This document shows positions 1,293 through 33,883 of a stretch of 35,956 nt of DNA, in pieces. Origin of the DNA: an uncultured Dokdonia sp. (lineage in GTDB: Bacteria > Bacteroidota > Bacteroidia > Flavobacteriales > Flavobacteriaceae); contig CAJXSW010000017.1 in NCBI GenBank assembly GCA_913060645.1, forward strand, positions 1 through 35,956, in the 5' to 3' direction. Below the pieces are notes generated by a model. The model did not search any database. It worked only from the letters and a program-made list of their open reading frames with translations, and was not told the DNA's origin. The position numbers and the translations under genes are program-made. Every line of letters begins with the position of its first letter. The first letter of the stretch is position 1.

Positions 1293-1312
1293 TACGCTTT
1301 CGCGAAAGCGTA
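1293..1312. repeat. Iterated palindrome, 20-bp form
   Basis: Perfect palindrome TACGCTTTCGCGAAAGCGTA, intergenic, inside the probable leader of the lipoprotein gene. The 14-bp core is GCTTTCGCGAAAGC. The same 20 bases recur at 3717-3736 and 7290-7309. Confidence 0.95.
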
Positions 1313-1364
1313 CAAGCACATAAACAACACCTAGTAGTTGATGTGCTGATTTATGCTGGCTAAG

Positions 1365-1436
1365 CTACAAATAGATTTTTACACTTGTTTACGGTTTTCC
1401 TTTGGGCTTGTTTTTTTTTATGTAAAATTTACATTA
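1365..1436 (-). promoter_or_regulatory. Upstream module, copy 2 (shared with 418-492)
   Basis: CTACAAATAGAT (1365-1376), 16 bases, GGTTTTCCTT (1393-1402), then TGTAAAAT (1421-1428) and TTACATTAT (1428-1436). The 28-nt offset between the first two blocks is the same as in copy 1. It lies 187 nt before the lipoprotein start, against 63 nt for copy 1, so the two transcripts would have very different leader lengths. Confidence 0.45.
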
Positions 1437-1572
1437 TGATGTTGTATGCAATAAGCTTAGGCATATGGCTTTAGTCTTTGTAATTAGTGGGCTTAATAGC
1501 CTTTGAACAGTGAGTTAGTTATTCTAGGAATGTAGGATAATTATGGAGACGTCATTTTATCTCACAACCCCT

Positions 1573-1602
1573 TTGTAAATCAAGATAAAGGATGTATTTT
1601 TG
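1573..1602 (+). promoter_or_regulatory. rpsA promoter (TTG / TATTTTTG)
   Basis: TTG at 1573-1575 and TATTTTTG at 1595-1602, 19 bases apart, fit the Bacteroidota primary promoter TTG-N(17-23)-TAnnTTTG. Transcription would start near 1609 and leave a leader of about 155 nt before the rpsA ATG. Confidence 0.6.
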
Positions 1603-1663
1603 CACTCCTTTTTGGCCACCTTTAGAAAGCTGCCAGAGAGGTATTTAAAAAAAAAACAAACCC

Positions 1664-1764: not shown

Positions 1765-3597
1765 ATGGCTGAAGAAACAAAAAATCCTGAAGTTCAGGAA
1801 GACGCTGCAGTAGTAGCACCAAAAGTTGAGCTATCTCCAGCTCAAGAGAACCCAAAGAAATTTCTTGAAGATTTTAACTGGGAAAAGTACGAAGAAGGAA
1901 TCGACACTGTAGATGACAAGCAACTTGAAGAGTTTGAAGCGCTAGTAGCTCAAAACTTTGTAGATACACTTGATGACGATGTAGTAGAAGGAACAGTAAT
2001 TACAATTACTGATCGTGATGCAATCATTGACATTAACGCTAAGTCTGAAGGAGTAATTTCTCTTAATGAGTTCCGTTACAATCCAGATCTTAAAGTAGGT
2101 GATAAAGTAGAAGTACTTATTGACGTACGTGAAGATGCAACTGGGCAATTGATATTATCACACCGTAAGGCACGTGTTATCAAGGCTTGGGATCGCGTTA
2201 ACGCAGCACATGATGAGGGAACTATCGTAAACGGATTTGTAAAAGCTCGTACTAAAGGAGGTATGATCGTAGATGTTTTCGGTATCGAAGCATTCTTACC
2301 AGGATCACAAATTGATGTAAAGCCTATCCGTGATTACGATCAGTATGTAAATAAAACAATGGAATTCAAGGTTGTAAAAATCAACCACGAGTTTAAAAAC
2401 GTTGTAGTATCTCACAAAGCGCTTATCGAAGCAGATATCGAAGAGCAGAAGAAGGAGATCATCGGGCAGCTTGAAAAAGGACAAGTACTTGAAGGTGTTG
2501 TTAAAAACATTACTTCTTACGGTGTATTTGTTGATCTTGGAGGTGTTGATGGATTGGTACACATTACAGACCTTTCTTGGTCACGTATCAACCACCCGAA
2601 TGAAATCGTTGAGCTTGATCAGAAACTGAATGTTGTAATCCTTGACTTTGATGAGGATAAAACACGTATCCAGTTAGGTCTTAAGCAACTTTCTAAGCAT
2701 CCATGGGAGGCTTTAGGAGAAGAGCTTAAAGTAGGTGATAACGTAAAAGGTAAAGTAGTTGTAATCGCAGATTACGGTGCATTTATCGAAGTAGAAGAAG
2801 GAGTAGAAGGTCTTATCCACGTATCAGAAATGTCATGGTCTACGCACTTACGTAGCGCTCAAGACTTTGTAAAAGTAGGAGACGTAGTAGATGCTCAAAT
2901 CCTTACTTTAGATCGTGAAGATCGCAAGATGAGCCTTGGTATCAAGCAATTAACGCAAGATCCATGGACAGATATTACTTCAAAATACCCTGTAGGTTCA
3001 CGTCACGAAGGTATCGTACGTAACTTTACAAACTTCGGTGTGTTCTTAGAACTAGAAGAAGGTATTGATGGATTAATTTACATCTCAGATCTTTCTTGGA
3101 CTAAGAAAGTGAAGCATCCATCAGAATTCTGTGAGGTAGGAGATAAACTAGAAGTAGTGGTTCTTGAGCTTGACGTAGATGGACGTAAATTATCTTTAGG
3201 TCACAAACAAATCGAAGCAAATCCTTGGGATAAGTACGAGGATGAGTTCAAAATGGGTACTACTCACAAAGCTGCAATCACAGAGATTGTAGACAAAGGA
3301 GCTACTATCGATTTTAACGAGGATATTACTGCATTTGTTCCTACACGTCACCTTGAAAAAGAAGACGGAACTAAATTAGGAAAAGGAGAAGAAGCAGAAT
3401 TCCAAATTATTGAATTCAACAAAGACTTCAAGCGTGTAGTTGCTTCACATATGGTTATCCATAAAGAAGAAGAAGCTAAAATCGTTAAGCAACAAGCTAA
3501 GAAAGCTAAAACTCAATCTGATGAGTCTAAGCCTACTTTAGGTGATGCAAACGATGCTCTTGCAGCTCTTAAAAAGAAAATGGAAGGAGGAGAGTAA
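1765..3597 (+). CDS. rpsA: 30S ribosomal protein S1
   Basis: A 610-residue protein with six S1 (OB-fold) RNA-binding repeats at about residues 73-135, 150-218, 239-308, 323-396, 410-483 and 497-563. Repeats 3-5 carry the typical G-V/A-F-[IVL] core followed by DGL[VI][HY][IV]S/T-D/E-[LM]SW, and each ends in a G-K/H-KQ-x(4-5)-PW segment. The N-terminal 70 residues are acidic and the tail is Lys-rich. S1 binds mRNA on the small ribosomal subunit and helps recruit transcripts, which matters in a clade that does not depend on Shine-Dalgarno pairing. The gene is monocistronic, with its own promoter, a long structured leader and a strong terminator just after the stop. Confidence 0.97.
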   Translation: MAEETKNPEVQEDAAVVAPKVELSPAQENPKKFLEDFNWEKYEEGIDTVDDKQLEEFEALVAQNFVDTLDDDVVEGTVITITDRDAIIDINAKSEGVISLNEFRYNPDLKVGDKVEVLIDVREDATGQLILSHRKARVIKAWDRVNAAHDEGTIVNGFVKARTKGGMIVDVFGIEAFLPGSQIDVKPIRDYDQYVNKTMEFKVVKINHEFKNVVVSHKALIEADIEEQKKEIIGQLEKGQVLEGVVKNITSYGVFVDLGGVDGLVHITDLSWSRINHPNEIVELDQKLNVVILDFDEDKTRIQLGLKQLSKHPWEALGEELKVGDNVKGKVVVIADYGAFIEVEEGVEGLIHVSEMSWSTHLRSAQDFVKVGDVVDAQILTLDREDRKMSLGIKQLTQDPWTDITSKYPVGSRHEGIVRNFTNFGVFLELEEGIDGLIYISDLSWTKKVKHPSEFCEVGDKLEVVVLELDVDGRKLSLGHKQIEANPWDKYEDEFKMGTTHKAAITEIVDKGATIDFNEDITAFVPTRHLEKEDGTKLGKGEEAEFQIIEFNKDFKRVVASHMVIHKEEEAKIVKQQAKKAKTQSDESKPTLGDANDALAALKKKMEGGE

Positions 3598-3622
3598 TTC
3601 TCACCATCTAGTTTTTTATAAT

Positions 3623-3716: not shown

Positions 3717-3736
3717 TACGCTTTCGCGAAAGCGTA
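3717..3736. repeat. Iterated palindrome, 20-bp form
   Basis: Perfect TACGCTTTCGCGAAAGCGTA between the rpsA terminator and the leftward transferase gene; intergenic copy. Confidence 0.95.
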
Positions 3737-3865: not shown

Positions 3866-4939
3866 TTACTTTTGATCTAAAGAATCGATAATAGTATCGT
3901 GTTGAAATACTGGGCCGTGATATTGTAATCGCTTGCGCATCTTATATTTCCTTATGAAGTTATAAGGCTTCTTTTTTAAGTGAGATTTATCACTGTGTAA
4001 AAATGCGATAGTGGCATCTATAACTCTGCGGCTAGATTGTCCATCATGATATGGGTGAGAAAATGCAGCAAACTCCTCTATGTGCTTGATTAACTCAGGA
4101 GGATTCGTTAGTGCGCGAGTAATTTCTTTCTCAATGTCGCTTACTTCTGTTACATCTATTAGGTATGGTCCAGGCATATTATTCCTAAAGGTAACGACTA
4201 GTTTGTGTTGTAATAAAAACTCTATAATAGCAGATGTAGTATCTGCAAAAAGTATGTTTGCCTTTTTAAATAACGGTATTAAATCTGTGGTGTCATGATA
4301 CACAAAATTCTCATTTTGTAATGCTTTGATTTTTGCGTGTACAGCCGGGTCCAACTTAGGGTGGAGTACAATATTAAACTTCCACTTATCTAGCTTAGAT
4401 AGACGTACCAGTTCTTCTATTACCTCGTCTTTTAAGGCAATACTATAATCTTTTGTAAATGTAGAGGCAATTAATATAGTAGGCTTTTCTGTCTCATTAT
4501 TTTCAATAGGAAACAGTGGGTCAACCTTTGACCAGCCAGTTTCTACTACTTCAAAATGAGGATATTTTTTTTGCTGCTTTTTAAAAGGGACTGTGCTCGA
4601 CGGTCCTTGTGTACAGTATAAATCAAAGAAACCTCGAATTCTAAACTGGTCTGTTCCTTTGCGTTTATTGGCAGGAAAACCATGAAAAATCTGCACTTTA
4701 ATACCTGATAAAAAATGTGCTACACTGTCTGTAGCAGTGAGCACAATATGTGGTCTGTATGCAACCGCTTCATCTATAGTGTGTAGTGCACCTTGCTCAA
4801 CGAGCAGTTTTTCTTTTCCCTCATCTTGATCTGCAAACCAGCGTACGCTGTGACCTAATCTTAGTAGTTCCTGTTCTAGTGGTTTACCTATAGGAATAGA
4901 GTAGCTATATGAGATGTAAATGAGAAATTTGTAGTCCAT
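3866..4939 (-). CDS. CDP-glycerol glycerophosphotransferase-like (TagB/TagF family) protein
   Basis: A 357-residue cytoplasmic or membrane-peripheral protein resembling the Glyphos_transf family: a GT-B-like fold with an N-terminal half containing IVLTATDS and QIFHGFPANK, and a C-terminal half with ILIASTFTKDYS, LHPKLDP and FADTTSAIIEFLLQHKLVV. The last matches the conserved T-[DT]-x-S-S/A-x-x-x-E-F segment of these enzymes. They transfer polyol- or sugar-phosphate units onto surface polymers. In a Gram-negative organism the acceptor is more likely capsule or lipopolysaccharide than teichoic acid. It starts 1 nt after the stop of the Stealth-type gene, so translational coupling is likely. Exact substrate unknown. 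Confidence 0.75.
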   Translation of the reverse strand: MDYKFLIYISYSYSIPIGKPLEQELLRLGHSVRWFADQDEGKEKLLVEQGALHTIDEAVAYRPHIVLTATDSVAHFLSGIKVQIFHGFPANKRKGTDQFRIRGFFDLYCTQGPSSTVPFKKQQKKYPHFEVVETGWSKVDPLFPIENNETEKPTILIASTFTKDYSIALKDEVIEELVRLSKLDKWKFNIVLHPKLDPAVHAKIKALQNENFVYHDTTDLIPLFKKANILFADTTSAIIEFLLQHKLVVTFRNNMPGPYLIDVTEVSDIEKEITRALTNPPELIKHIEEFAAFSHPYHDGQSSRRVIDATIAFLHSDKSHLKKKPYNFIRKYKMRKRLQYHGPVFQHDTIIDSLDQK

Positions 4940-6820: not shown

Positions 6821-7050
6821 AAGTTTCAAATGCTTTTTGATGGTTTCTAGTGGGGCAAAACTCAAACAAGTTAAGGCTTTCTTGTTATATATAAAACAAG
6901 TGGTCCTTGGTTGTAATGTGCATTGTGAAGCTATGTCACCACTTAGCTGGTAAAAGATAAGCTACCCTATAAATAGCTGCTTTTTGTGATTGCAAGACCT
7001 TACTAGTATGAAAGCTATTGCGATGCACGACCTTATAGCTTGTTTTTCCT

Positions 7051-7058
7051 TATTTTTG
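7051..7058 (+). promoter_or_regulatory. ruvX -7 box
   Basis: TATTTTTG matches TAnnTTTG exactly, 14 nt before the ATG at 7073. It lies inside the longer open frame that begins at 7040, which argues that the earlier ATG is not used. Confidence 0.55.
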
Positions 7059-7072
7059 CACAAATTTTACAG

Positions 7073-7483
7073 ATGGCACGCATCATTGCAATAGATTACG
7101 GAACAAAGCGCACTGGTATCGCAGTGACAGACGAGTTGCAGATGATCGCTTCAGGTCTTACAACGGTTGAAACTAAAGATATTTTTACTTTTTTAAAGAA
7201 GTATCTTTCAGAAGAGAAGGTGGAGGCTATGGTGATAGGTGAGCCTAAGCGCATGAATAATGAGGCGAGTGATGTGGAGGTAGACATTGTACGCTTTCGC
7301 GAAAGCGTAGAAAAAAAACATCCAGAGTTAACCATCATTAGACAAGATGAAAGGTTTACTTCAAAGATGGCATTCCAGACCATGTTAGACAGTGGTATCG
7401 GTAAAAAGAAAAGACAAAATAAAGCACTTGTAGATCAAATTAGTGCAACGATTATCCTTCAGGATTACCTGTATAATAAGTAG
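7073..7483 (+). CDS. ruvX: Putative pre-16S rRNA nuclease / Holliday junction resolvase-like protein
   Basis: A 136-residue YqgF/RuvX family protein with an RNase H-like fold. Visible motifs are the N-terminal IIAIDYGTKRTGIAV with the first catalytic Asp, VIGEPKR, the DERFTS motif and the C-terminal Asp in LVDQISATIILQDYL. The family matures the 5' end of 16S rRNA. The frame is open from an ATG at 7040, but I choose 7073 because MARIIAIDYG is the normal family start and the promoter box overlaps the extension. A 20-bp palindrome (7290-7309) lies in the reading frame and encodes VRFRESV between two conserved parts. It is followed after 2 nt by def, so the two form an operon. Confidence 0.93.
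   Translation: MARIIAIDYGTKRTGIAVTDELQMIASGLTTVETKDIFTFLKKYLSEEKVEAMVIGEPKRMNNEASDVEVDIVRFRESVEKKHPELTIIRQDERFTSKMAFQTMLDSGIGKKKRQNKALVDQISATIILQDYLYNK
7290..7309. repeat. Iterated palindrome, 20-bp form, inside ruvX
   Basis: Perfect TACGCTTTCGCGAAAGCGTA in coding sequence; read in the frame giving RFRES. It falls in a variable surface part of the protein before the DERFTS motif. Confidence 0.95.
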
Positions 7484-8173: not shown

Positions 8174-8599
8174 ATGAGTTTAGATAAAGTAATTGCAATC
8201 GCTGGAAAGCCTGGAATATATGAGTTAAAGCAACAAACACGCAGTGGTTTTGTGGCAGAATCTCTAGTAGATGGTAAGAGAATTACCGTAGGTATCCGTC
8301 ATAACGTAAGTGTACTTTCTGAAATTGCTATTTACACCTTAAGTGAGGAGAAGCCACTTAGAGAGGTGTTACAAGCCATAAAAGACAAGGAAAATGGAGC
8401 GCCTACTATTAATCATAAAGTCTCAAAAGATGAACTTGAAGAGTTTTTCTTTAACGTGATTCCAGATTATGATGAGGATCGTGTGTATGCTAGTGATATC
8501 AAAAAGGTAGTGCAGTGGTACAACATTTTGCAAGCAAAAGATATGCTTAACTTTGAAGCGCCAGCAGCGCCCGCAGCAGCAAGCGAAGAAGAGGAATAG
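8174..8599 (+). CDS. DUF5606 domain-containing protein
   Basis: A 141-residue protein that matches what I know of DUF5606, a Bacteroidota family of unknown role. It starts MSLDKVIAIAGKPGIYEL and contains GFVAESLVDGKRITV and VSVLSEIAIYT, suggesting a small beta-rich N-terminal domain. A helical segment (SKDELEEFFFNVIPDYDEDRVYASDIKKVVQWYNIL) follows, and the tail is low-complexity Ala/Pro/Glu ending in EEEE. No signal peptide, so cytoplasmic. It has its own promoter and terminator, so it appears to be monocistronic between def and mazG. Confidence 0.85.
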   Translation: MSLDKVIAIAGKPGIYELKQQTRSGFVAESLVDGKRITVGIRHNVSVLSEIAIYTLSEEKPLREVLQAIKDKENGAPTINHKVSKDELEEFFFNVIPDYDEDRVYASDIKKVVQWYNILQAKDMLNFEAPAAPAAASEEEE

Positions 8600-8674: not shown

Positions 8675-8688
8675 GCTTTCGCGAAAAT
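8675..8688. repeat. Iterated palindrome, degenerate copy
   Basis: GCTTTCGCGAAAAT, 12 of 14 bases of the core, preceded by TAC. Intergenic, between the DUF5606 terminator and mazG. It looks like a decayed or half-built copy. Confidence 0.6.
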
Positions 8689-8764
8689 GTGATAAGCACC
8701 CACACTGTAAATAACATTAAATTAAGGTAATAGTAAATTATTGCTCCAATTACCACCACTGACT

Positions 8765-9538: not shown

Positions 9539-9575
9539 TCGGTTTCTAATGAAATATTTTGAGAAGTAATTGATA

Positions 9576-9635
9576 TTCAACTTCAACTTCAACTTCAACT
9601 TCAACTTCAACTTCAACTTCAACTTCAACTTCAAC
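9576..9635 (+). repeat. Hexanucleotide tandem repeat (TTCAAC)10
   Basis: Ten perfect copies of TTCAAC in 60 bp with no interruption, ending 102 nt before the ATG of the vWA chimera and 37 nt after the mazG stop. Perfect short tandem repeats are prone to slipped-strand copy change. Here that would change promoter spacing or the mazG 3' end, not a reading frame. Confidence 0.97.
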
Positions 9636-9737
9636 ATAAGGGTTACTTCCCTCACTCAAACATCCAGTTCCCTCAATCTAGGTTTTTAAAAGGTGATCTC
9701 TACTATAATTTCACCTCATAATTAAAAACCAAAGGAT

Positions 9738-13233: not shown

Positions 13234-14535
13234 ATGAATCGGACTTCAAAAATTATTTCTATTAGTGATATAGCAACGCTTAAGGAGCAGTTGTTATCGT
13301 GGTCTCAACAATATGAAGAGGTTGTCTGGCTTGATAGTAATAGCTATGAACGTCAGAATTATCCTGAGTATGAAGCCATCTTAGCAGTAGATGCTTTTAC
13401 TAGTTTAAAGACAGATTATCAAGGCGCTTTTGACCAGCTGGAGGAGTATCAAAGTACGATAAAGGATTGGATATTTGGCTATTTGAGTTATGATCTTAAG
13501 AATGATACGGAGCGCCTTACTTCAAAAAATAGCGACAAGCTAGACTTTGCAGACCTTCATTTTTTTCAACCTAAAAAGTTATTCTTATTCAAAGGAAACA
13601 CACTCGAGATGTTATATCTAGGTATGGTAGATGATGAGATGGAGGAGGATTTTGAGGAAATAACTGCCACCAAATCTTCTGAAACTAACTCCCAAGCGCA
13701 ACCATTATCCATAAAACTTAAGATTCACAAAGAGGCTTACAAGGAAAAAGTGCGCAGCATGTTAGAGCATATTTATCGGGGAGATATTTATGAGGCAAAT
13801 CTTTGTCAAGAGTTTTATGCACTAGGAAGCATCGATCCTCTAGAGATTTATAAACGCCTTAATGCGATTAGTTCGCCACCTTTTGGCACCTATCTCAAGC
13901 TCGAGGATCAGTTCTTACTTTCGGCATCTCCGGAGCGATATATTAAGAAAATAGGGAGTAAGATTGTCACACAACCCATAAAAGGAACAGCAAAACGTGG
14001 GGTAGATGAAAAGGAGGATACCGCTTTCGCGAAAGCGTTACAAGAAAACTCAAAAGAGCGTTCTGAAAATATCATGATTGTAGATTTGGTAAGAAATGAC
14101 CTATCAAAAACCGCCCAAAAAGGATCTGTAATTGTAGAAGAGCTATGCGAAGTTTATCCTTTTAAACAAGTGCACCAAATGATCTCTACGGTAACATCAA
14201 CGCTTAGTCTTGGTATTTCTCCGGTAGATGCGATTAGAAGTACGTTCCCAATGGGAAGCATGACAGGCGCTCCAAAGTTGAGAGCAATGCAAATTATTGA
14301 GTCACTAGAGGAGTCAAAACGTGGCTTGTATAGCGGCGCTGTAGGTTACTTTACGCCAGATGGAGATTTTGATTTTAATGTGGTCATACGTAGTATTCTA
14401 TACAATGCAGAAAATGAATATATCTCATACTCCGTAGGTGGAGCCATCACGGCAGGGTCAGATCCAGATAGTGAGTATGAAGAATGCTTGCTTAAAGCAA
14501 AAGCGATGCGTGCAGTTTTAGAAGGAGATTTGTAA
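13234..14535 (+). CDS. pabB: Aminodeoxychorismate synthase component I
   Basis: A 433-residue chorismate-utilising enzyme (anthranilate synthase component I family). Key motifs: GDIYEANLCQEF, LSASPERYIK, PIKGTAKRG (Lys250), ERSENIMIVDLVRNDLSK, FPMGSMTGAPK and GLYSGAVGYF. PIKGT, in place of the PIAGT of TrpE, carries the lysine used by PabB-type enzymes, so the product is 4-amino-4-deoxychorismate for folate. An amidotransferase partner (PabA/TrpG) is not in the window. An iterated palindrome at 14022-14037 encodes AFAKA at residues 264-268, just after PIKGTAKRGVDEKED. A box TATTTTTA, one base off TAnnTTTG, lies 6-13 nt before the ATG, so the leader is very short. Confidence 0.92.
   Translation: MNRTSKIISISDIATLKEQLLSWSQQYEEVVWLDSNSYERQNYPEYEAILAVDAFTSLKTDYQGAFDQLEEYQSTIKDWIFGYLSYDLKNDTERLTSKNSDKLDFADLHFFQPKKLFLFKGNTLEMLYLGMVDDEMEEDFEEITATKSSETNSQAQPLSIKLKIHKEAYKEKVRSMLEHIYRGDIYEANLCQEFYALGSIDPLEIYKRLNAISSPPFGTYLKLEDQFLLSASPERYIKKIGSKIVTQPIKGTAKRGVDEKEDTAFAKALQENSKERSENIMIVDLVRNDLSKTAQKGSVIVEELCEVYPFKQVHQMISTVTSTLSLGISPVDAIRSTFPMGSMTGAPKLRAMQIIESLEESKRGLYSGAVGYFTPDGDFDFNVVIRSILYNAENEYISYSVGGAITAGSDPDSEYEECLLKAKAMRAVLEGDL
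14022..14037. repeat. Iterated palindrome, 16-bp form, inside pabB
   Basis: CGCTTTCGCGAAAGCG in coding sequence, read in the frame giving AFAKA, in the segment that normally follows the PIKGT motif. Confidence 0.95.
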
Positions 14536-15021: not shown

Positions 15022-15065
15022 GAATATGATAAGCAATCCGTTTTCGCGAAAGCGTAATCATATTC
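15022..15065 (+). promoter_or_regulatory. Long hairpin in the ettA leader built around a palindrome copy
   Basis: GAATATGAT (15022-15030) pairs with ATCATATTC (15057-15065) and encloses an imperfect iterated palindrome CGTTTTCGCGAAAGCG (15039-15054) that can fold on itself. It ends 26 nt before the ATG. It may be a leader structure that affects expression or mRNA stability. Confidence 0.5.
15040..15053. repeat. Iterated palindrome, one-mismatch copy
   Basis: GTTTTCGCGAAAGC, 13 of 14 core bases; intergenic, in the ettA leader. Confidence 0.75.
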
Positions 15066-17090: not shown

Positions 17091-17104
17091 GCTTTCGCGA
17101 AAGC
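17091..17104. repeat. Iterated palindrome, 14-bp core
   Basis: GCTTTCGCGAAAGC, flanked by AC on the left and ATAAAA on the right; intergenic, 39 nt past the stop of the leftward M14 peptidase gene. Confidence 0.95.
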
Positions 17105-17143: not shown

Positions 17144-19681
17144 TTAATCAATGAGACTCCCAAAAAAGATTGCGTTTAAGAATAGCTTATTTGTTCCATA
17201 CCAGCTTCCTCTAAAGTTAGGATTATCTGCAAACATCACTATGCGTCCTCGTCCTTTAGGAGAGATTACAATAGATGCGCTCTTTTTCATAAAGTCATTG
17301 AGGTTTTTATCAGAAATATAACCGTCTATATGTGGCGTTGCCGAATACTGTGCAACAGTGTTATACTCGTTTTTGCTAGGTTGTAACCACACATTGTTAT
17401 TTTTATATACAGGTAGCTTGTCATATCTGTATCCAAAAGCTAGTGGGTGGGTAAGATCTAGGTCTACTTCAAAAATAGCTCCACCTAGGCGCTCTTTCCC
17501 GCGATTAGGTCTTTGATTTACATAAGGCTTGCGCTCTTGAGTAGCTGTAGAATCTTTTTTAGCTTCTTTAGTAAGTTTTCCTGTAGCTATTTTTGATTTG
17601 ATAGCCCAGCTGCTAGCTGTTCCAGAAGTAATCAATGTGTTCCCTTGTGAAACCCATGAGGTTAGATTTTCTTGAAATCGCTTTGATAAATCCCCGTAGC
17701 TTCCAGAAACCATTACTACTGTGTTGTATTTACTTAAATCTACCCTAATAAGATTGTTGCTCATCACTTTTGTAATAGGCATATGTACACGCGTATCAAG
17801 TAAATGCCATATCTCGCCAGCTTCGTACGAGCTTGTCCCATCTCCTATAATCATAAGCGCTTTAGGAGTATCCACTTTTTGAAAATTCTGACTACCTAAG
17901 TCAATTCCTTTAATGCTAAAGCCAGTATTTGCCGCATAGATAGGAACTTGGAATTGCTGTTGTCCAGATGTAATAATACGATACACTTCTTCTGTTGTTT
18001 TGTCTTGACGACTTACAGGCAGCATTAGTGTTCCGTAGTTGAAGTCATGATTACCGCTTGTTGTTTTTGCAGTAAAAGGTTTGAACGCCGTCGCCACCGT
18101 CAGACCTTCACGCTGTAAATAAGCAAGCAAAGCAGGCGCATTATAATCATCATAATCGATGAGGTATGCATATTCAGTTTTGTTTACAGCTTGAACTTGA
18201 GTGAGATTGTCTGTAGACGTAACTTCGCTACCTAAGTTCGGTGAGCTAGACAATCCCTTGTAACGCATATTGTAAAAATTACCCACAGACCATGCACTTG
18301 CGTCATAATAAACACTGTCTCTGTATGTTTTATAAGTTTCAAAAAAGGACTGCACCATTCTTTTTTGTGCTTGTTGTGTAGGTACTACATATCGTCCATC
18401 GCCTTTGTCATACAACTTAATGCGATGCTTAAGTAGCTTATCTATAAAAGCCTTGGTTCTATTTGCGTCATAAGGATCTCCAAACTCATAAGCGGCTGCT
18501 TGATCTGTTTTTGCTTTCGCGAAAGCGGACTTAAAAAAATCTTGCTGGTATTTGCGCAAAGTCCCTTTATTCTCTACTGCGGCCTTTACAGTAGCCATCC
18601 CAGAGGTGTACTGATTTCTAATGGTAAAAGGAAAACTTATAGTTCCGAAATCTGTGTCTTGAAGATGCCCGCGACTACTTGCTTGTTCAAAAAGAAGTGC
18701 TAGTGCTCCCTGAAGATCCGGATATGATGATCCATAACCAGGGTAGGTGCCATCAAAAGATTCCTTTGTAAAATAAAAACTACCTATCTCATCAAGCGCA
18801 CTTGAAAAGTAAGGAGCAAAAAGGTTATTGAGGTCTTCATAGTTTTCCTTGGGCATAATAGGATCCATACTCCCAATAGGTAACATAGGCTCAAAAAAGT
18901 GACTGCTGTTTGTTCCCATCTCGTGAAAATCTGTAACTACATTTGGATACCACTCGTGATACCAATCTAGTTTACCACGGCTTTCTGGATTTATCGCAAG
19001 GAGCCAGTCACGGTTTAAGTCAAACCAGTAATGGTTAGTACGTCCGCGAGGCCACATCTCGGTATGCTCTGCGTCTATATTATCAGAAACCAGCGGAGTA
19101 CCTTTATAGCTATTTGCCCACTGTGTATGGCGATCACGACCATCTGGATTTATGGTAGGATCTATAAATATGATACTGTTATTTCTATATTTTTCGATTT
19201 CGGGATGTTGTGAGGCAACGAGCGTGTATGCCGTGAGCAAAGCCGCTTCAGAGCTGGATGGCTCATTGCCATGTACATTATAACCTAGTTGTATAAAAAC
19301 AGGGATATCATCATAATTAGTCGCACGTTGCTTGGTATCTACAAAGGCGAGGTGTTGCTTTTTTAGGGCAGGTAAGTTCTCTTGATTTTTGATGTTTGAG
19401 ACGGTAAGCATCACAAGTTTGCGGTTTTCGTGTGTTTTTCCGTACTCGCTTATGGTTACTCTAGGTGATAATTCGGCTAGTTTTTCAAAGTAGGAGACTA
19501 TCTGATCGTGGCGCGTGTGTTGCTCACCTATTTCATAACCAAGATATTGTGCCGGAGACGGGATTGCAGCGTCAAAAGGTGCGTACTTTCCTGTAAAGTA
19601 CTCTTGTGCGTGTAGTTGAGGTGATAACGCTTTCGCGAAAGCGAGTACTAAAACACTTACAACTAGAATTTTGTATTTCAT
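17144..19681 (-). CDS. Secreted M14 family zinc carboxypeptidase
   Basis: An 845-residue exported protein. Residues 1-25 are a signal peptide ending LHAQ. The M14 domain (about 45-380) has zinc ligands in HGNE (His137, Glu140) and DFHEMG (His253), substrate motifs NPDG (178-181) and DLNR (221-224), and the catalytic Glu in FEQASSRG (Glu332). The long C-terminal part (about 590-845) resembles a class I amidotransferase-like/ThuA-type fold (ALMIIGDGTSSYEAGEIWHLLD, YNTVVMVSGSYG), a common add-on in Bacteroidota M14 peptidases. It probably degrades peptides for nutrition. Two iterated palindromes lie in the gene: one encodes AFAKA inside the signal peptide (residues 14-18), the other SAFAKAK in the middle. 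No T9SS tail seen. Confidence 0.9.
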   Translation of the reverse strand: MKYKILVVSVLVLAFAKALSPQLHAQEYFTGKYAPFDAAIPSPAQYLGYEIGEQHTRHDQIVSYFEKLAELSPRVTISEYGKTHENRKLVMLTVSNIKNQENLPALKKQHLAFVDTKQRATNYDDIPVFIQLGYNVHGNEPSSSEAALLTAYTLVASQHPEIEKYRNNSIIFIDPTINPDGRDRHTQWANSYKGTPLVSDNIDAEHTEMWPRGRTNHYWFDLNRDWLLAINPESRGKLDWYHEWYPNVVTDFHEMGTNSSHFFEPMLPIGSMDPIMPKENYEDLNNLFAPYFSSALDEIGSFYFTKESFDGTYPGYGSSYPDLQGALALLFEQASSRGHLQDTDFGTISFPFTIRNQYTSGMATVKAAVENKGTLRKYQQDFFKSAFAKAKTDQAAAYEFGDPYDANRTKAFIDKLLKHRIKLYDKGDGRYVVPTQQAQKRMVQSFFETYKTYRDSVYYDASAWSVGNFYNMRYKGLSSSPNLGSEVTSTDNLTQVQAVNKTEYAYLIDYDDYNAPALLAYLQREGLTVATAFKPFTAKTTSGNHDFNYGTLMLPVSRQDKTTEEVYRIITSGQQQFQVPIYAANTGFSIKGIDLGSQNFQKVDTPKALMIIGDGTSSYEAGEIWHLLDTRVHMPITKVMSNNLIRVDLSKYNTVVMVSGSYGDLSKRFQENLTSWVSQGNTLITSGTASSWAIKSKIATGKLTKEAKKDSTATQERKPYVNQRPNRGKERLGGAIFEVDLDLTHPLAFGYRYDKLPVYKNNNVWLQPSKNEYNTVAQYSATPHIDGYISDKNLNDFMKKSASIVISPKGRGRIVMFADNPNFRGSWYGTNKLFLNAIFFGSLID
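18513..18526. repeat. Iterated palindrome, 14-bp core, inside the M14 gene
   Basis: GCTTTCGCGAAAGC; on the gene strand read as AFAKA in the helical region after the peptidase core. Confidence 0.95.
19628..19643. repeat. Iterated palindrome, 16-bp form, in a signal peptide
   Basis: CGCTTTCGCGAAAGCG; on the gene strand it encodes AFAKA at residues 14-18 of the M14 peptidase signal peptide, putting a Lys in the hydrophobic core. Confidence 0.95.
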
Positions 19682-25351: not shown

Positions 25352-26111
25352 ATACGGATTAATAGGAAAAGATATAGGATACTCATTTTCTAGAGGGTAT
25401 TTTAAAAATAAGTTTGATAAGCTTGAGATAGCGGCAACATATGTGAATTTTGATGTTCCCGAGAAAGAGGCTTTAAAAGATCTTTTTTCTCCCGCTTACG
25501 CGAAAGGATATAATGTAACCATCCCATACAAACAGGATGTTATACCACTAGTGGATAATCTTAATGTAGATGCCGAAGCTATTGGAGCTGTAAACACCAT
25601 AAAAGTTGAAAGCGACGGAACGTTAACTGGCTACAATACTGACTTTATCGGTTTTAGAGATACATTGTTAGAGCACTTTGGAGACTCTCTTTTTGTAGAT
25701 TTTGGCACGCCAAGCTTTAAAAGTAGAGATTTAAAATGCCTTATTTTAGGAACAGGAGGAGCATCAAAGGCGGTACACTATGCAATGAAACAGCTAGGTG
25801 TTCAATGTGTTTTTGTTTCGCGAAAGCGTAACAAATCAACAATAACCTACGAAGATTTAGATAGAGAACTCATCGAGAGCCAGACTTTTATAGTGAATAC
25901 AACTCCGCTAGGCACCTATCCGGATGTAGAGGAATCTCCAGATATTCCATATTTATTTTTAAATGAAGCACATGTTGCATTTGACTTGATTTATAATCCG
26001 GCAGAGTCTTCTTTTTTACGATATGCAGGCAAGCAAGGAGCGACCATAATTAATGGTTTGCGCATGCTAGAATTGCAAGCAGAGGCCTCATGGTCAATAT
26101 GGAACAGCTAG
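25323..26111 (+). CDS. aroE: Shikimate dehydrogenase
   Basis: A 262-residue NADP-dependent enzyme of aromatic amino acid synthesis (3-dehydroshikimate to shikimate). Shikimate-site residues are visible: SFS (Ser21, Ser23), NVTIPYK (catalytic Lys70) and NTD (Asp107). The nucleotide loop GTGGASKA starts at residue 143, and NTTPLGTYP and NGLRMLELQA close the family pattern. The ATG at 25323 lies 29 nt inside the DUF368 gene. A GTG at codon 8 would shorten the overlap; conservation begins at YGLIGK, so both are possible. A partial iterated palindrome (25816-25830) codes for SRKR right after the NADP-binding segment. Confidence 0.95.
   Translation: MEQEQELVDKYGLIGKDIGYSFSRGYFKNKFDKLEIAATYVNFDVPEKEALKDLFSPAYAKGYNVTIPYKQDVIPLVDNLNVDAEAIGAVNTIKVESDGTLTGYNTDFIGFRDTLLEHFGDSLFVDFGTPSFKSRDLKCLILGTGGASKAVHYAMKQLGVQCVFVSRKRNKSTITYEDLDRELIESQTFIVNTTPLGTYPDVEESPDIPYLFLNEAHVAFDLIYNPAESSFLRYAGKQGATIINGLRMLELQAEASWSIWNS
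25816..25830. repeat. Iterated palindrome, partial copy, inside aroE
   Basis: TTTCGCGAAAGCGTA, the right three quarters of the 20-bp form; the left arm is missing. Read in the third frame (SRKR), which differs from the full coding copies. Confidence 0.6.
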
Positions 26112-28628: not shown

Positions 28629-29174
28629 ATGATGCGCATTCTATTATTTCTCTTTGTGGTTACTGCAACAACCTTAAGCTGTGATGGTCAGAAAAAGAAG
28701 GAATCACCTTCTAACACGATTACAACAAACTATTACTTTATTCGTCACGCAGAAAAAGATTTGAGTGATCCTAGTAATCGTAATCCAGACCTGACAATAG
28801 AAGGAGAAGAAAGAGCAGAGCGATGGAAGGCTTATTTCTCAGATAAGGATATCGATGCTGTGTACTCAACAGACTATATACGTACAATGCGCACTGCAGA
28901 ACCTACTGCTGTGGCAAATAATGTTGAGATACAATCCTATAATCCTTCGGAGCTATTTTCAGAAGATTTTAAACTTGATACTGCAGGTAAAAATATTGTA
29001 GTGGTAGGGCATAGCAACACCACTCCTAATTTTGCAAATGCTGCATTAGGTGAAAACTCTTTTAAAGATATTGATGAGTCTGAGTATTTCCATCTTTACC
29101 ACGTACAACTTGTTGTAAATGATGAAACGGGAGAGATAATCGATAGAAAAAATATCTCAACGGTAGTAGACTAG
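28629..29174 (+). CDS. Histidine phosphatase family lipoprotein
   Basis: A 181-residue protein of the phosphoglycerate-mutase-like (RHG) superfamily. A lipoprotein signal ends in LSC (Cys18). The catalytic motif reads RHAEK (Arg39, His40), the second His is in VVGHSN (His128), and a conserved Arg (YSTDYIRTMRTAEP) is present, so the site looks complete. Substrate unknown; it acts in the periplasm or at the outer membrane if the lipid anchor is real. A second ATG follows at once (28632). Its TAG stop lies inside the four-base CTAG shared with the convergent DUF6503 gene. Confidence 0.88.
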   Translation: MMRILLFLFVVTATTLSCDGQKKKESPSNTITTNYYFIRHAEKDLSDPSNRNPDLTIEGEERAERWKAYFSDKDIDAVYSTDYIRTMRTAEPTAVANNVEIQSYNPSELFSEDFKLDTAGKNIVVVGHSNTTPNFANAALGENSFKDIDESEYFHLYHVQLVVNDETGEIIDRKNISTVVD

Positions 29175-29923
29175 CAATTATCAGGACAGATAGTTACAGT
29201 GATATTCTCAAGCTCAATCTTACTTAAAAGATTGAGCTTGTTGTTTTCAAAGAGATTATCAAGCGTGGTAAGCGCAGGAAATTGCTCTTCTGGTTTGTAA
29301 TTGCGATAATCTACAAAGCGTATTCCTTCTATGATACGTTCATTGTAAGCTTCTCTAAAACGCGTGCCACCTTCAGAAGTTTGATAATTATAAGCAAGAT
29401 AATTTACGTTGTAATTCTCTTTGTGAATCCAATACATGTACTCATCTTGAAAATCTTCACCACCACCTTCTTGTGCAAATGCTACTTTAATACGGTAATA
29501 AGACTCGCCTTTTACGGTAACTTCATCCACTAGATTTTTTCTTACTGCTGGATCATTTAACCCATATGGAAGTACAGAAAAGTAATGAACAGAGTTAACG
29601 CTATTTGCATAACGATTTTTCATGCTATCTGCTACTGGGATAGGTGCGCTTTCGCGAAAGCGTACAAATTCTCCATTATCTTTTATAACGTCTTGTTGTA
29701 CCTGACATTCAGCATCCGTACAACGTTCTAAGGTGCGTAAACCTTCATTGCGAGTGGCTCTATAGTAGAAATCTCTAAACTTGAAATGAATACTAGCATG
29801 TTCAATTTGAGACCCACCAGAAGCTGCTATGGCCTTATCTACAATCTCTTGTGCAGTGGGTGTTTTTTGAGAACAACTTGTGATAATGAATAATAAGATA
29901 ATCGCCGAAAGAAATCGAAACAT
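29171..29923 (-). CDS. DUF6503 family lipoprotein
   Basis: A 250-residue lipoprotein with lipobox ITSC (Cys17). The mature part starts AQEIVDKAIAASGG, the usual opening of this family, and is probably a LolA-like half-barrel of antiparallel strands (IHFKFRDFYYRA, SYYRIKVAFAQ, MYWIHKENYNVNYLAYNY). That fold suggests lipid or lipoprotein binding, but the role is not known. An iterated palindrome (29647-29662) encodes VRFRESA at about residues 88-94. The last codons contain a perfect inverted repeat that acts as the terminator of the convergent gene. Confidence 0.82.
   Translation of the reverse strand: MFRFLSAIILLFIITSCSQKTPTAQEIVDKAIAASGGSQIEHASIHFKFRDFYYRATRNEGLRTLERCTDAECQVQQDVIKDNGEFVRFRESAPIPVADSMKNRYANSVNSVHYFSVLPYGLNDPAVRKNLVDEVTVKGESYYRIKVAFAQEGGGEDFQDEYMYWIHKENYNVNYLAYNYQTSEGGTRFREAYNERIIEGIRFVDYRNYKPEEQFPALTTLDNLFENNKLNLLSKIELENITVTICPDNC
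29209..29246 (+). terminator. Terminator of the phosphatase gene, inside the DUF6503 coding region
   Basis: 13-bp perfect stem CAAGCTCAATCTT / AAGATTGAGCTTG (29209-29221 and 29228-29240) with loop ACTTAA, followed by TTGTTTTC. It lies wholly within codons of the opposite-strand gene, where it codes for part of NNKLNLLSKIELEN. Confidence 0.7.
29647..29662. repeat. Iterated palindrome, 16-bp form, inside the DUF6503 gene
   Basis: CGCTTTCGCGAAAGCG followed by TAC; on the gene strand it reads RFRES, the same frame as in ruvX. Confidence 0.95.
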
Positions 29924-30101: not shown

Positions 30102-30106
30102 TTATA

Positions 30107-30568
30107 ATGTCAAATACGGTTAACATAAAGAATAGAAGGGCGCGCTTTGAGTATGAATTACTCGATAAGCTCGTTGCTGGAATCGTACTTGCGGGTACAG
30201 AGATTAAAGCAATACGAGAAGGTAAAGCCTCCATCGCAGAGAGTTTTTGTGAGTTTAATGATCATGGAGAAATGTTTGTGATTAATATGACGGTGCAAGA
30301 ATATTCTCATGCTACCTATTTTAATCACCAGCCTAAAAATCAACGTAAATTATTACTCAACAAACGCGAACTCAAAAAATGGGAGCGTGAGGTAAATAAA
30401 TCAGGTCTTACTATTGTACCACTACGTTTATTTACAAACGAAAAAGGATTTGCAAAGCTTGAAATTGCACTTGCAAAAGGAAAGAAAACCTACGACAAAC
30501 GAGAAACTATAAAAGATCGAGATAACAAGAAAAACTTAGATCGCATCAAGAAGTCTTTTAATAATTAA
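30107..30568 (+). CDS. smpB: SsrA (tmRNA)-binding protein SmpB
   Basis: A 153-residue basic protein that binds tmRNA and brings it to stalled ribosomes. Family landmarks are NIKNRRARFEYELLD, the GTEIKAIREGKASIAES strand-loop, HQPKNQRKLLLNKRELKK, and the basic C-terminal tail (KKTYDKRETIKDRDNKKNLDRIKK), which occupies the empty mRNA channel. Length is normal. Single gene with its own -7 box very close to the ATG. Confidence 0.97.
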   Translation: MSNTVNIKNRRARFEYELLDKLVAGIVLAGTEIKAIREGKASIAESFCEFNDHGEMFVINMTVQEYSHATYFNHQPKNQRKLLLNKRELKKWEREVNKSGLTIVPLRLFTNEKGFAKLEIALAKGKKTYDKRETIKDRDNKKNLDRIKKSFNN

Positions 30569-30646
30569 AACTCATTTTCTCAGTTTAACATTTTGTTAGG
30601 CAACTATTTATAATTTTATAACGTCTTTTATAGAGTACTATACTCT

Positions 30647-31381
30647 ATGCGTTTAAGATTACTTCTACTTTTATTATTTATCACCATCCAAGTTGTTGCA
30701 CAGTTTCCTATGTCTATGCAAGGACAGGTTACTCTTGAAGATAAAGTTCTAGAGTCTGCTCACGTGACTAATCTCAACTCACAGGGGAGTACCACTACAG
30801 ATAATAACGGAATATTCTGGCTACAAGTAGATGTGGGTGATGTATTACTTGTATCCCATGTTTCGGCCAAAGAGAAATTTGTTATCATACACAAGCAGCT
30901 TGCAAATGAACCTTTGTTATCTATTTCATTAGAAGAACAAAGAAATGAGCTAGATGAAGTGATCATAAAGGAACAGCCAGATATAACAGTACAAAGCGTA
31001 GGTATTATACAGGGAGAACGAAAAATTCCAACTGCAAATGAACGTAGGTTACATACAGCAGGAGATTTTAAACCTATTCATCTACTTAGTTTATTAGGTG
31101 GCAGTCTACAAGTAGACCCTATAATTAATGCTATTACTGGCCGTACTAAAAGGCTTAAACGTTATGTAGAAATAGATAAGAAAATCGCCGTTTATGAAAG
31201 TCTATATGAATATCATGCCTATTTTATAAAAGATAGGTTTGATATAGACGATACCGAGGTTAAGCGATTTTTTAACGAGCTGGTGAACCACCCAAACATC
31301 ACAGCATTACTTAAGAAAGATAATGAAGACCAGATTCGTATATGGCTTTGTGCTCAGTATCTTATCTTTAGTAATTCATAA
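30647..31381 (+). CDS. CarboxypepD_reg-like exported protein
   Basis: A 244-residue exported protein. A Leu-rich signal peptide (MRLRLLLLLLFITIQVVAQ) precedes a CarboxypepD_reg-like beta domain (about 24-105: GQVTLEDKVLESAHVTNLNSQGSTTTDNNGIFWLQV...LDEVIIKE). The C-terminal part is helical and polar (RRLHTAGDFKPIHLLSLLGGS, KRLKRYVEIDKK, FFNELVNHPNITALLKK). That layout is frequent in Bacteroidota envelope proteins without a barrel. It begins the pair with the DUF5686-type gene 24 nt downstream and probably works at the envelope with it. Function unknown. Confidence 0.75.
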   Translation: MRLRLLLLLLFITIQVVAQFPMSMQGQVTLEDKVLESAHVTNLNSQGSTTTDNNGIFWLQVDVGDVLLVSHVSAKEKFVIIHKQLANEPLLSISLEEQRNELDEVIIKEQPDITVQSVGIIQGERKIPTANERRLHTAGDFKPIHLLSLLGGSLQVDPIINAITGRTKRLKRYVEIDKKIAVYESLYEYHAYFIKDRFDIDDTEVKRFFNELVNHPNITALLKKDNEDQIRIWLCAQYLIFSNS

Positions 31382-31405
31382 TTTTCCATTTTCTAAGACA
31401 ATCAC

Positions 31406-33883
31406 ATGCGTACATACTTTTCTTTAGTTTTTATACTGCTCTTTTCCTTTGTTACAGCTGCACAGATTACAGGTACTGTAGTAAGTAAAGAAGGTGAGGC
31501 GCTTCCATTTGTAAATGTGTTTATAGAAAATACTAACCGAGGTACTACCACAAATGGTGATGGGCAATACGCTCTAGAATTACTGGCAATAGATCAAGGA
31601 GAAACATTAAATGTCACCTTTCAGTTTCTAGGCTATGCAACGGTTATAAAGGAAGTGGAGGTAAATTCTGAAGAAATGACAGTTTCTGTTGTAATGGAAG
31701 AATCTTCTACATCCCTAGATGAAGTAATCGTGCAAGCTGGTATAAATCCTGCAGATCACATTATACAAGGAGCAATATCCTCAAGAAAAAAGAATTTACG
31801 CAATATAGGAGAATATACTGCTGCCTTTTACTCTAGAGGGCTGTGGCAGGTAAAAGATGCACCAGATAAAATTTTAGGGCAAGAAGTAGGAGATCTAGGC
31901 GGTGGTCTGGACTCTACACGTACAGGTATCATATATCTAAGTGAGACTATTTCAAATATTAAATATCAGCGGCCAGATAATTTTAGCGAGGTAATCGTAG
32001 CGAGTAAAGTAAGTGGAGATGATAACGGTTTTAGCTTTAATACTGCGAGCGATGCAAATTTCTCTTTTTATGAAAATACCCTAGATCTCAATACGCAGAT
32101 CATTTCTCCTATCGCTAGTAATGCATTCTCTTACTACAAGTATAATCTTGAAGGAACGTTTTTTGAAAACGACCAACTCATCAATAAAATAACGGTAACA
32201 CCACGTAGAGAAAACGACCGCGTATTTACTGGAACCATCTATATTGTAGAAGATTCATGGCAACTTTATGGCGTAGATTTACAAACGGATGGTAGTGCGA
32301 TTCAAGTGCCATTTATTGAAAATCTCAACTTTAAGCAGAATTTTAAATATGAATCCTCACTTAGTCAGTGGGTGAAAATCTCACAAGTCATAGACTTTAG
32401 CTTTGGTTTTTTAGGACTTAAAGGTGATGGTAGATTTACAGCAGCTTATTCTGATTATGAGTTTGCTCCTCAGTTTACGAAGGACTCTTTTTCGGCAGAG
32501 ATTTTGTCTTTTGCAGATGAGGCAAATAAAAAAGATAGTGTGTTTTGGGAACGCAGCCGTCCAGTACCGCTAACCTCACTTGAGATAGATGACTACGTAA
32601 AGAAAGATAGCATACAGGTTATAAGAAAATCAAAGAAGTACCTAGATTCTATAGATGACCGAGGCAATCGATTTAAGATTACTTCGCCCATCTTTGGATA
32701 TTCTTATACAGATACTTATAATAAATGGCGATTTGGAATCACGCCACCTATCCAGAATATTCAGTTTAATACCGTTCAAGGTTGGAACGGAACCATGCAG
32801 GCAACTTAATCTAGTTGGAGTGATGAAGATTATAGTAAATCTCTTTCCGCTTTCGCGAAAGCGAACTACGGATTCTCAGAAGATCGTTTGCGTTACACAT
32901 TAGGATTTACTAGGCGTTTTAATCGTACTAATAGAGCCACTATAAGCGCTACGGGAGGAGTTGATATTTTACAAGTAAATAATGCAGACCCTGTACGCCC
33001 TATTATAAATTCATACCTCACATTAACTCAAGAAAAGAACTTTGCAAAATATTACGAAAAGGAATTTGCACAACTATACTATGGACAAGAAATAGTGAAT
33101 GGCTTGCGGGCAAACGCCATTATTGCTTACGAGCAGCGTAATCCTGTTTTCAACACTACAGATCAAACATTCTTCCCGAAAGATGATCGTGAGTATACCA
33201 GTAATAATCCGCTCAATTCTTTTGATACTGAGAACGGAGCTTTTGAAGCGCACTCCATCGGGAAGTTGCTTCTAAGTGCAACGGCAAATTTTGGTCAGAA
33301 ATATTACAGCTATCCTAGTGGGAAATTTAATGTTACTTCAGAAAAATATCCATCACTTACCTTAGTGTATGAAAAAGGTTTTGGAGCTTCTAGATCAGAT
33401 TATAACTTTGACCAACTACGCGTTGTCGCTCAACAAGAGTTTAATGTGAGTAATAAGGGTAGAATGTCTTATGATGTGCGCGCTGGGACCTTCTTAGGCA
33501 CTGCAAAAGGTGTGAGTTTTATAGATAGACAGCATTTTAATGGTAATCGCTCGCTCTTTTTTGAGCCATCACGCCTCAATCGATTTAATGTCTTACCTTA
33601 TTATGAACGTAGTACAAACCAAGGGTATGTAGAAGGGCATGTTGAGCATAATTTTAGAGGTTGGGTACTAGGAAAGATACCGCTAGTAAATAAACTTAAT
33701 TTTAATCTTATTGCAGGTGCACACGTGCTTAGCACAAATGAAAGCTCGTTTTATAGAGAATTTACCGTAGGAATAGGAAATGTAGGTTGGGGTAAATTTA
33801 GGCTATTACGTTTTGACTATGTGTATGGACAAGGAGCACTAGGAGGCAGTGATGGTGCGTTTTTAATAGGGTTGAGTTTGTAA
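31406..33883 (+). pseudogene. DUF5686 / CarboxypepD_reg-like outer-membrane protein, interrupted by one in-frame stop
   Basis: Two open segments (31406-32809, 467 codons, and from 32810 to 33883) are in the same frame, separated only by a TAA at 32807-32809. Read through, they make one 825-codon protein: signal peptide (to TAAQ, residue 19), a CarboxypepD_reg-like domain (about 20-100, ending in LDEVIVQAG), the long DUF5686 part, and a C-terminal barrel-like region ending ...FLIGLSL. The residues after the stop (SSWSDEDYSKS) continue the family-like sequence at once, so no bases are lost. It is either a recent nonsense mutation, a sequencing or assembly error, or readthrough. An iterated palindrome (32848-32863) encodes SAFAKAN 13 codons past the stop. 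The second ATG-like start at 32888 is TTG, so I do not treat the 3' part as a separate gene. Confidence 0.8.
32848..32863. repeat. Iterated palindrome, 16-bp form, inside the DUF5686 gene
   Basis: CGCTTTCGCGAAAGCG, AFAKA frame, 39 nt after the in-frame stop. Confidence 0.95.

Follow-up and report, generated by a model that had tools for sequence, protein, structure and literature searches.

The window analyzed here, a stretch of 35,956 bases (37% GC) from an uncultured Dokdonia sp., raises the question of why one short palindrome should recur along its whole length. An earlier note on this DNA had likened the repeat to HIP1 of cyanobacteria or to a chromosome-wide binding site serving organization, segregation, methylation or repair. 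This general view is supported by genome-wide iteration, by the presence of sites in coding as well as intergenic DNA and by the lack of insertion-like behavior. The best reading of the data is a HIP-like lattice of sites for a putative dimeric protein that would organize or maintain the chromosome, to which we grant slightly less than an even chance.

Copies in the window, the genus and the family

The nine exact copies of the 14-mer listed in the earlier note are all found at the starts it gave, three of them in the full 20-mer form (Table 1; the 14-mer starts at 1296, 3720 and 7293 in these three). The imperfect copies it had reported are genuine as well; for the third, the 14-mer match begins at 25814, and the given position, 25816, marks where the TTTCGCGAAA core starts. 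At two mismatches or fewer, the window holds 13 matches to the 14-mer, against a mean of 0.10 and a largest value of 1 in 100 dinucleotide-preserving shuffles, together with 12 copies of TTTCGCGAAA and 39 of CGCG. A further, weaker match to the 14-mer lies at 25494. At the site starting at 14023, located within an ORF which we take to be pabB-like (13234-14535), 14 of 14 letters are identical in 8 of 10 Dokdonia orthologs.

Table 1. Copies of the palindrome in the window, with their genetic context.
Feature	Positions	Strand	Context
Exact 20-bp palindrome	1293..1312	.	Between divergent ORFs 615-1178(-) and 1765-3597(+)
Exact 20-bp palindrome	3717..3736	.	Between convergent ORFs 1765-3597(+) and 3866-4939(-)
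Exact 20-bp palindrome	7290..7309	.	Within RuvX-family ORF 7040-7483, peptide RFRES
Imperfect copy, 2 mismatches	8675..8688	.	Between ORFs 8174-8599(+) and 8741-9538(+)
Exact 14-mer	14023..14036	.	Within ORF 13234-14535, peptide AFAKA
Imperfect copy, 1 mismatch	15040..15053	.	Between ORFs 14556-14972(+) and 15092-16786(+)
Exact 14-mer	17091..17104	.	Between convergent ORFs 15092-16786(+) and 17144-19681(-)
Exact 14-mer	18513..18526	.	Within ORF 17144-19681(-), peptide SAFAKA
Exact 14-mer	19629..19642	.	Close to start of ORF 17144-19681(-), peptide LAFAKA
Imperfect copy, 2 mismatches	25814..25827	.	Within ORF 25323-26111, peptide VSRKR
Exact 14-mer	29648..29661	.	Within ORF 29171-29923(-), peptide RFRES
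Exact 14-mer	32849..32862	.	DUF5686 gene frame, past in-frame stop, peptide AFAKA

The copies are not confined to this segment. The Dokdonia genome from which the window originates (3.1 Mb) contains 705 exact copies of GCTTTCGCGAAAGC, and the 17 other genomes of the genus that were searched contain 369-905 copies each; D. sinensis has 857 and D. pacifica 903. These numbers are far above Markov expectation, so that neither of the refuting outcomes named in the earlier note came about: in 1.62 Mb (49%) of the complete chromosome G016, where genes were taken as longest-ORF calls, 450 copies are found against 0.0026 expected at order 3. The expectation rises to 7.6 at order 5 and 174 at order 6, orders at which the word counts come to be dominated by the sites. 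Density ranges from 133 to 274 copies per Mb in the 13 of 18 genus genomes retained once five that were less than 90% complete had been dropped, and it falls with genome size (Spearman -0.70, same 13 genomes, rounded sizes). Since copy number hardly increases with genome size, accessory DNA seems to be site-poor.

Among 397 genomes of the family, more than 19 copies occur outside Dokdonia in two genera only, which are not closely related and carry 408-664 copies. Between 1 and 19 copies are present in 74 family genomes, with 16-19 in g92 and g67; the stretches looked at came from 11 of these 74, among the matches listed and outside g92 and g67. When coding sites were aligned across the carrier genera, one of nine was shared, the same sequence standing mostly in different places. 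No iterated word of their own stood out in other genera when 73 of 80 named loci were pooled by genus, one near-duplicate and six loci without a genus name being excluded. The palindrome is also carried by a temperate phage lineage, which was picked by means of the 14-mer and includes several near-identical contigs. At least two cores are present in 14 of the 120 viral loci listed, and two Nonlabens phages have no site. Transferred metal islands bear sites, and no plasmid match was obtained for 20 kb of G222. Dokdonia serves as a model of marine bacteria that bear proteorhodopsin. The solved proteins nearest to the rhodopsin of g26, one of the two other carrier genera, are 9jov and 9jou.

Spacing, conservation and form of the site

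Sites occur once per 3-3.5 kb and are spaced evenly. In G016, the gaps between copies of TTTCGCGAAA have a coefficient of variation of 0.62, and a coding-matched null gives 1.09; gaps below 1 kb represent 7.9% against 33.7%, 11 gaps exceed 8 kb against 36.8, and none of 1000 simulations was as even as the observed arrangement. No trend from ori to ter is apparent, each of 40 blocks of 40 kb in this chromosome holding 7-16 copies. Orientation, as read from the weak asymmetry of the arms, displayed no bias by replichore in what is a weak test (Fisher p 0.66, 516 sites), and polarity of the Chi or KOPS type was set aside on this result. As we read the ORFs, the gaps above 8 kb are for the most part occupied by genes of great length or by tightly packed genes rather than by foreign islands; a single site-free stretch of 10.3 kb and 31.8% GC (2423252-2433545 in G016) may be foreign. 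The earlier observation that sites lie in both coding and intergenic DNA extends beyond the window, about half of them being intergenic with an enrichment of 5.9-fold in tandem, 4.1-fold in divergent and 6.6-fold in convergent gaps. Over half a chromosome, the palindrome encodes 131 of the 149 AFAK, 60 of the 64 LSRK and 49 of the 51 FRES peptides present in ORFs.

Sites are kept in place between species. At 60-83% identity, 13 of 14 ungapped sites are conserved against 36 of 965 random 14-mers; this comparison drew on 20 ungapped sites over all identity bins, with four gapped ones set aside and alignments shorter than 300 bases dropped. Orthologous loci differ mostly by substitutions, the core being ungapped in 188 and gapped in 27 of 215 ordered pairs, which are not independent and from which sites near alignment ends were dropped. 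Sites thus change between species by substitution and not by insertion.

The consensus is approximately TTA-CGCTTTCGCGAAAGCG-TAA, with a strict core of 10 bp extended to 14-18 bp. Strictness is illustrated by the 522 occurrences of TTCGCGAA, 520 of which read TTTCGCGAAA, and by the 462 exact 12-mers against 88 one-off copies, 53 of the latter carrying C>T at the outermost base. C-poor, GT-rich 5' arms extend over roughly 30 bp on either strand, and the 3' arm is rich in A and C but not in T. In intergenic sites, pairing of the two sides is at chance level at +/-6 to 10 and below chance at +/-11 to 13; in coding sites, pairing at +/-10 is above chance (z 2.7). The arms are weakly asymmetric, and in coding sites this asymmetry tracks the gene strand (p 2e-10).

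Weighing of the alternatives

The main rival, unlikely but deserving serious attention, is a palindromic DNA-uptake sequence, in which the natural-transformation machinery would have a surface receptor that prefers DNA with the site, and preferential uptake with recombination would spread and maintain sites in the core genome. The DUS of Neisseria and the USS of Haemophilus share with the present sequence an even spacing of copies that number in the hundreds, locations in genes as well as between them, recurrent peptides and restriction to particular lineages; they differ from it in that the palindrome is symmetric, its one-off copies are few and the receptor family presumed for uptake showed no link to it. 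PMC1939737 also reports even spacing for uptake sequences and presents these two known families as not palindromic. Further points in favor of uptake come from natural transformation in two Riemerella species of the same family, R. columbina preferring its own DNA (PMC7965970), and from the requirement of R. anatipestifer uptake for surface proteins that include a DUF5689 lipoprotein (PMC8459023). DUF5689 proteins are present in 12 of 12 carriers, but equally in 16 of 16 non-carriers, in a check of the competence machinery that covered this family; their identity does not follow the palindrome and DUF5689 was therefore rejected as the uptake receptor. The decrease of density with genome size speaks for uptake, and separate accumulation in three lineages together with sites on transferred metal islands fits a drive. 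Such a drive would nevertheless be expected to leave many intermediates, which are few, and the phages bear sites, although prophages could meet the same drive. We know of no competence in Dokdonia.

In its overall behavior the palindrome is the same as HIP1 and the alternate HIPs of cyanobacteria (GCGATCGC), which are likewise genome-wide, genic and intergenic, lineage-restricted, changed by substitution and without an agreed function. The HIP core is shorter (6-8 bp), the C-poor 5' arms and the Bacteroidota host are particular to the present case, and HIPs are reported to reach about 1000-2000 per Mb (PMC4390886), well above the density found here. A HIP1-type sequence linked, as in Elhai's model, to mismatch repair and an orphan DNA methyltransferase is very improbable. 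Methyltransferases for part of the sequence are reported in every HIP-bearing genome (PMC4390886), whereas no C5 or N6/N4 enzyme is common to the present carriers: in a search of these two families, PF00145 was found in 5 of 12 and PF01555 above cut-off in 2 of 12. No shorter core is enriched, TCGCGA being at expectation outside the sites (102 against 104.7), so that the methylation branch of the earlier proposal is left unsupported for the families searched. Usual methyltransferase sites are also shorter than the strict core. The segregation branch fails in its ParB form: each of 12 carriers has one PF02195 match and no second ParB, a parS-like cluster at 738-751 kb of G016 stands apart from the palindrome sites, and these are neither clustered at ori nor missing near ter. 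Noc and parS sites are chromosomal palindromes of 14-16 bp with TTTC...GAAA halves, as here, but their center between the halves is 4 bp, against 2 bp here, and the present copies lie by the hundreds all round the chromosome. A Chi-like recombination or repair signal, at which a resection enzyme or a bound roadblock would halt from either side to leave GT-rich 3' tails for RecA, is improbable. RecA prefers GT-rich DNA, the GT-rich stretch 5' of the site on each strand would yield such tails both ways after a break, a palindrome working in both directions would be of use for breaks to either side, and phages could benefit; the Chi sites of RecBCD and AddAB resemble the present ones in density and in the nearby GT-rich strand. 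Known Chi sites are however short and not palindromic, no replichore polarity was found here, and RecC (PF04257) was detected in 0 of 28 genomes with a positive E. coli control, which rules against Chi in its RecBCD form. Least probable of all are readings as a structural hairpin or cruciform, as a transcription terminator or as a small, inserted REP-like mobile element. A single strand of the 14-mer can form a hairpin and the intergenic half of the sites would suit such roles, but the halves do not covary between genes and pair below chance in the outer arms, which makes a dimer bound to duplex DNA more likely than a hairpin. An intrinsic terminator was rejected on the missing T-run and the enrichment in divergent gaps, and a REP or MITE insertion on the predominance of ungapped cores in the non-independent ortholog pairs.

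A proposed lattice of binding sites

We return to the HIP-like lattice. The palindrome probably marks places where a putative protein grips the DNA. A single trans-acting, dimeric and sequence-specific protein, acting inside the cell, would bind the palindrome in duplex DNA chromosome-wide and would organize or maintain the chromosome by compaction, by anchoring or by loading of a DNA-maintenance complex. Each site may serve just about 1.5-2 kb to either side, a reach under which selection would fill gaps and crowding would bring no benefit. No binding protein was found, ParB being single-copy in 12 of 12 carriers with the parS-like cluster standing apart. Stretches without sites of up to 19 kb count against this reading, as do the two site-free Nonlabens phages and the site-poor accessory DNA, which seems odd if each stretch requires a site; pairing at +/-10 in coding sites and the weak arm asymmetry are not predicted by a plain symmetric dimer. 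To our knowledge, no chromosome-organizing protein has some 900 sites. No description of the palindrome was found in the literature searched, from which the 12-mer and 14-mer are likewise absent, and TTTCGCGAAA figures in one paper as a string that the human genome lacks. A wider statement is possible but more tentative: a regular lattice of some 700-900 near-identical putative anchor sites would be held by selection, as an organizing or self-recognizing system unlike ParB/Noc, MatP, Chi and the methylation-based HIPs, with which three Flavobacteriaceae lineages (Dokdonia and the two other genera) would separately have filled their genomes and to which temperate phages would have adapted.

The even lattice offers a clean handle on an old question, the filling of certain bacterial genomes by a single short palindrome. 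Protein sequences are shaped by it as well, most AFAK, LSRK and FRES peptides originating from the palindrome. It further marks gene flow, as a label on phages and metal islands that probably went through these hosts at some point.

Abundance and spacing of the palindrome in Dokdonia

All nine exact copies of the 14-bp core claimed in the earlier note were recovered at their positions in the window, three of them as the 20-bp form. The imperfect copies proved real when the window was searched with mismatches, 13 matches at up to two mismatches being obtained versus 0.10 in shuffled windows. The palindrome extends far beyond this segment: the source genome (3.1 Mb, 89% complete, 219 contigs) contains 705 exact 14-mers and no copy of the reversed control. 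Among the 39 genomes searched, this one included, the 14-mer occurs 369-905 times in all 17 other genomes of the genus and is absent from all 21 genomes of other genera. Dokdonia sinensis has 857 copies and D. pacifica 903.

The Markov comparison proposed earlier was performed on 1.62 Mb (49%) of a complete Dokdonia chromosome (G016), sampled as evenly placed blocks. This sample holds 450 14-mers, against 0.0026 expected under an order-3 model, together with 354 16-mers, 156 18-mers, 124 20-mers and 520 copies of TTTCGCGAAA (among 522 TTCGCGAA). Each full 40-kb block contains 7-16 sites, also around the minimum and maximum of GC skew, and the variance-to-mean ratio of counts per 10 kb is 0.36. 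Spacing was compared with 1000 simulations in which the coding/intergenic preference of the sites was kept. The coefficient of variation of the gaps is 0.62 versus 1.09 in this null, gaps below 1 kb amount to 7.9% versus 33.7%, those above 8 kb number 11 versus 36.8, and none of the simulations approaches the observed evenness. Across 13 of the 18 genus genomes (2.9-5.5 Mb), copy number is nearly flat (slope 46 per Mb, p 0.26) and site density decreases with genome size (Spearman -0.70, p 0.008); accessory DNA is therefore probably poor in sites.

The match of the window's DUF5686 gene to its family ends at an in-frame TAA (348 of 669 positions), which reflects either an assembly error or a broken gene.

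Coordinates of features in the window and on the complete Dokdonia chromosome
Feature	Sequence	Coordinates	Observation
Tandem TTCAAC repeat	window	9564-9641	just upstream of ORF 9738-11192
DUF5686 gene	window	31406-33883	same frame continues beyond the TAA
In-frame TAA	window	32807-32809	
parS-like sites	G016:C1	738368-751320	near GC-skew minimum; best, TGTTCCACGTGAAACA, one base off the parS consensus

Anatomy, placement and conservation of the sites

In G016, the strict part of the palindrome is TTTCGCGAAA; beyond it, positions +/-6 to +/-10 hold C (94%), G (94%), C (83%), A (59%) and T (75%), in that order. Farther out, the 5' arm of either strand is C-poor and G/T-rich over 20-30 bp and the 3' arm is its mirror image. 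Similar arms are found in g26, another genus of Flavobacteriaceae (21 sites), and weaker ones in a further genus, g206 (21 sites). The arms are weakly asymmetric, one being more T-rich, a signal that exceeds 10 re-paired nulls. The proposed plot against origin, terminus and strand revealed sites all along the sampled chromosome and no evident polarity, the slight asymmetry making for a weak test: arm orientation is linked neither to replichore (p 0.66 for all sites, 0.54 for intergenic ones) nor, at intergenic sites, to gene direction. It tracks the gene strand at in-gene sites. At intergenic sites the two sides pair at no more than chance level from +/-6 to 10 and below that level from +/-11 to 13 (z -2.3, -3.9, -2.5); in-gene pairing exceeds chance at +/-10 (z 2.7). 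On balance, these tests disfavour a hairpin and fit two half-sites on duplex DNA.

The 520 sites comprise 256 in ORFs (0.55x expectation), 257 in intergenic DNA and 7 at block edges, with enrichments of 5.9x in tandem, 4.1x in divergent and 6.6x in convergent gaps. In-gene sites mostly encode AFAKA, RFRES or LSRKR, and within the ORFs of the sample the site writes 131 of the 149 AFAK, 49 of the 51 FRES and 60 of the 64 LSRK peptides. In 120 kb of the g206 genome G222 (L231, L255, L386-L389; GC 45%, weaker arms), ORFs contain 17 of the 21 sites; the corresponding figures are 256 of 520 for G016 and 9 of 21 for g26.

Dokdonia species keep sites in place between them. The site at 14023, inside the ORF of a pabB-like protein, retains all 14 bases in 8 of 10 orthologs, where the aligned DNA is 68-76% identical. 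Pairs at 60-83% identity preserve 13 of 14 ungapped sites, versus 36 of 965 random 14-mers, in a small, non-independent sample. Among 215 ordered pairs, 27 have gaps within the core and 88 only near it; the pairs without gaps in or near the core comprise 82 identical and 18 substituted ones. One-off 12-mers number 88 versus 462 exact ones, 53 of them differing by one outer C>T.

Distribution among lineages and mobile DNA

Sites occur in all ten loci whose pabB-like protein is 70-83% identical to that of the window (nine titled Dokdonia, one Cytophagaceae bacterium), which identifies the genus as Dokdonia; the remaining 70 named loci, the nearest being L026 at 69%, contain neither the 14-mer nor the 10-mer. 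More than 19 copies are present in six of 397 family genomes: the source genome (705), its congener G012 (857), a single g206 genome (408) and three g26 genomes (578, 664, 609). A further 74 hold 1-19 copies, and in a phylum-wide sample of 395 genomes the source genome alone exceeds 6. The pabB-like protein of g206 (59% identity) and g26 (49-51%) is no nearer to that of the window than are those of genera without genome-wide sites (52-66%), so that the palindrome, by this measure, occupies at least three separate lineages. Since one of nine aligned coding sites is shared between genera (two of the alignments being only ~30% identical), each genus appears to have accumulated the word on its own. 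The highest counts in the remaining genera, 16 and 19 in g92 (G108, G318) and 17 in g67 (G083), are well below genome-wide numbers; they may represent islands, or accumulation at an early or late stage.

In six of the 11 low-copy genomes sampled by stretches (G110, G119, G133, G246, G044, G378), copies cluster in putative copper/heavy-metal efflux islands, as read from ORF beginnings without family search. In four islands from different genera (L216, L219, L220, L223), the same 405-aa outer-membrane efflux-like ORF holds two copies spaced by 933 bp, which mark a transfer that probably went via a palindrome-bearing host. Sites also occur in a phage lineage that has portal and capsid families and, on two contigs, a tyrosine-integrase match: it carries 25 cores in 163.5 kb, on 11 of 12 contigs (several near-identical). 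Its distant portal relatives carry 2 cores in 588 kb, on 2 of 47, and no 14-mer; the lineage was selected via the 14-mer itself, so the contrast shows that sites can occur in phages but gives no measure of how common they are there. A contig of 39.8 kb has 4 copies. Two Nonlabens phages lack the site. On three phage contigs (L130, L148, L201), a site lies in a short gap adjoining an integrase-like ORF.

Candidate readers and possible roles

Candidate families were searched in 12 genomes with genome-wide sites (carriers) and 16 without. ParB gives a single match per carrier. C5 methyltransferases occur in 5 carriers and 9 non-carriers, N6/N4 methyltransferases exceed the cut-off in 2 carriers, and RecC was found in none of the 28 genomes. 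The likeness to HIP1 of cyanobacteria drawn in the earlier note holds for behaviour; however, this site is longer and stricter, with wide arms and an even lattice, and no methyltransferase of the C5 or N6/N4 families is common to carriers. No description of the palindrome was found in the literature searched, which leaves out most subscription journals; its text contains neither the 12-mer nor the 14-mer, although the 10-mer occurs in ten papers, PMC8034619 among them.

Sequence-specific DNA uptake, ranked second and rather unlikely, would account well for the deficit of sites in accessory DNA and for their separate accumulation in lineages, and Riemerella columbina shows self-preference (PMC7965970). 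Known uptake sequences, however, are not palindromes (PMC1939737). DUF5689, to which an uptake protein of Riemerella belongs (PMC8459023), was rejected as a palindrome-linked receptor: it is present in all 28 genomes and its identity is unlinked to the palindrome. A palindrome whose sides do not covary suggests a dimeric DNA-binding protein as the reader, and the even spacing and lack of polarity suggest that its role is static and limited in range. A function inside the cell, in organisation or maintenance, is placed first, as a tentative reading with somewhat less than an even chance of being correct.
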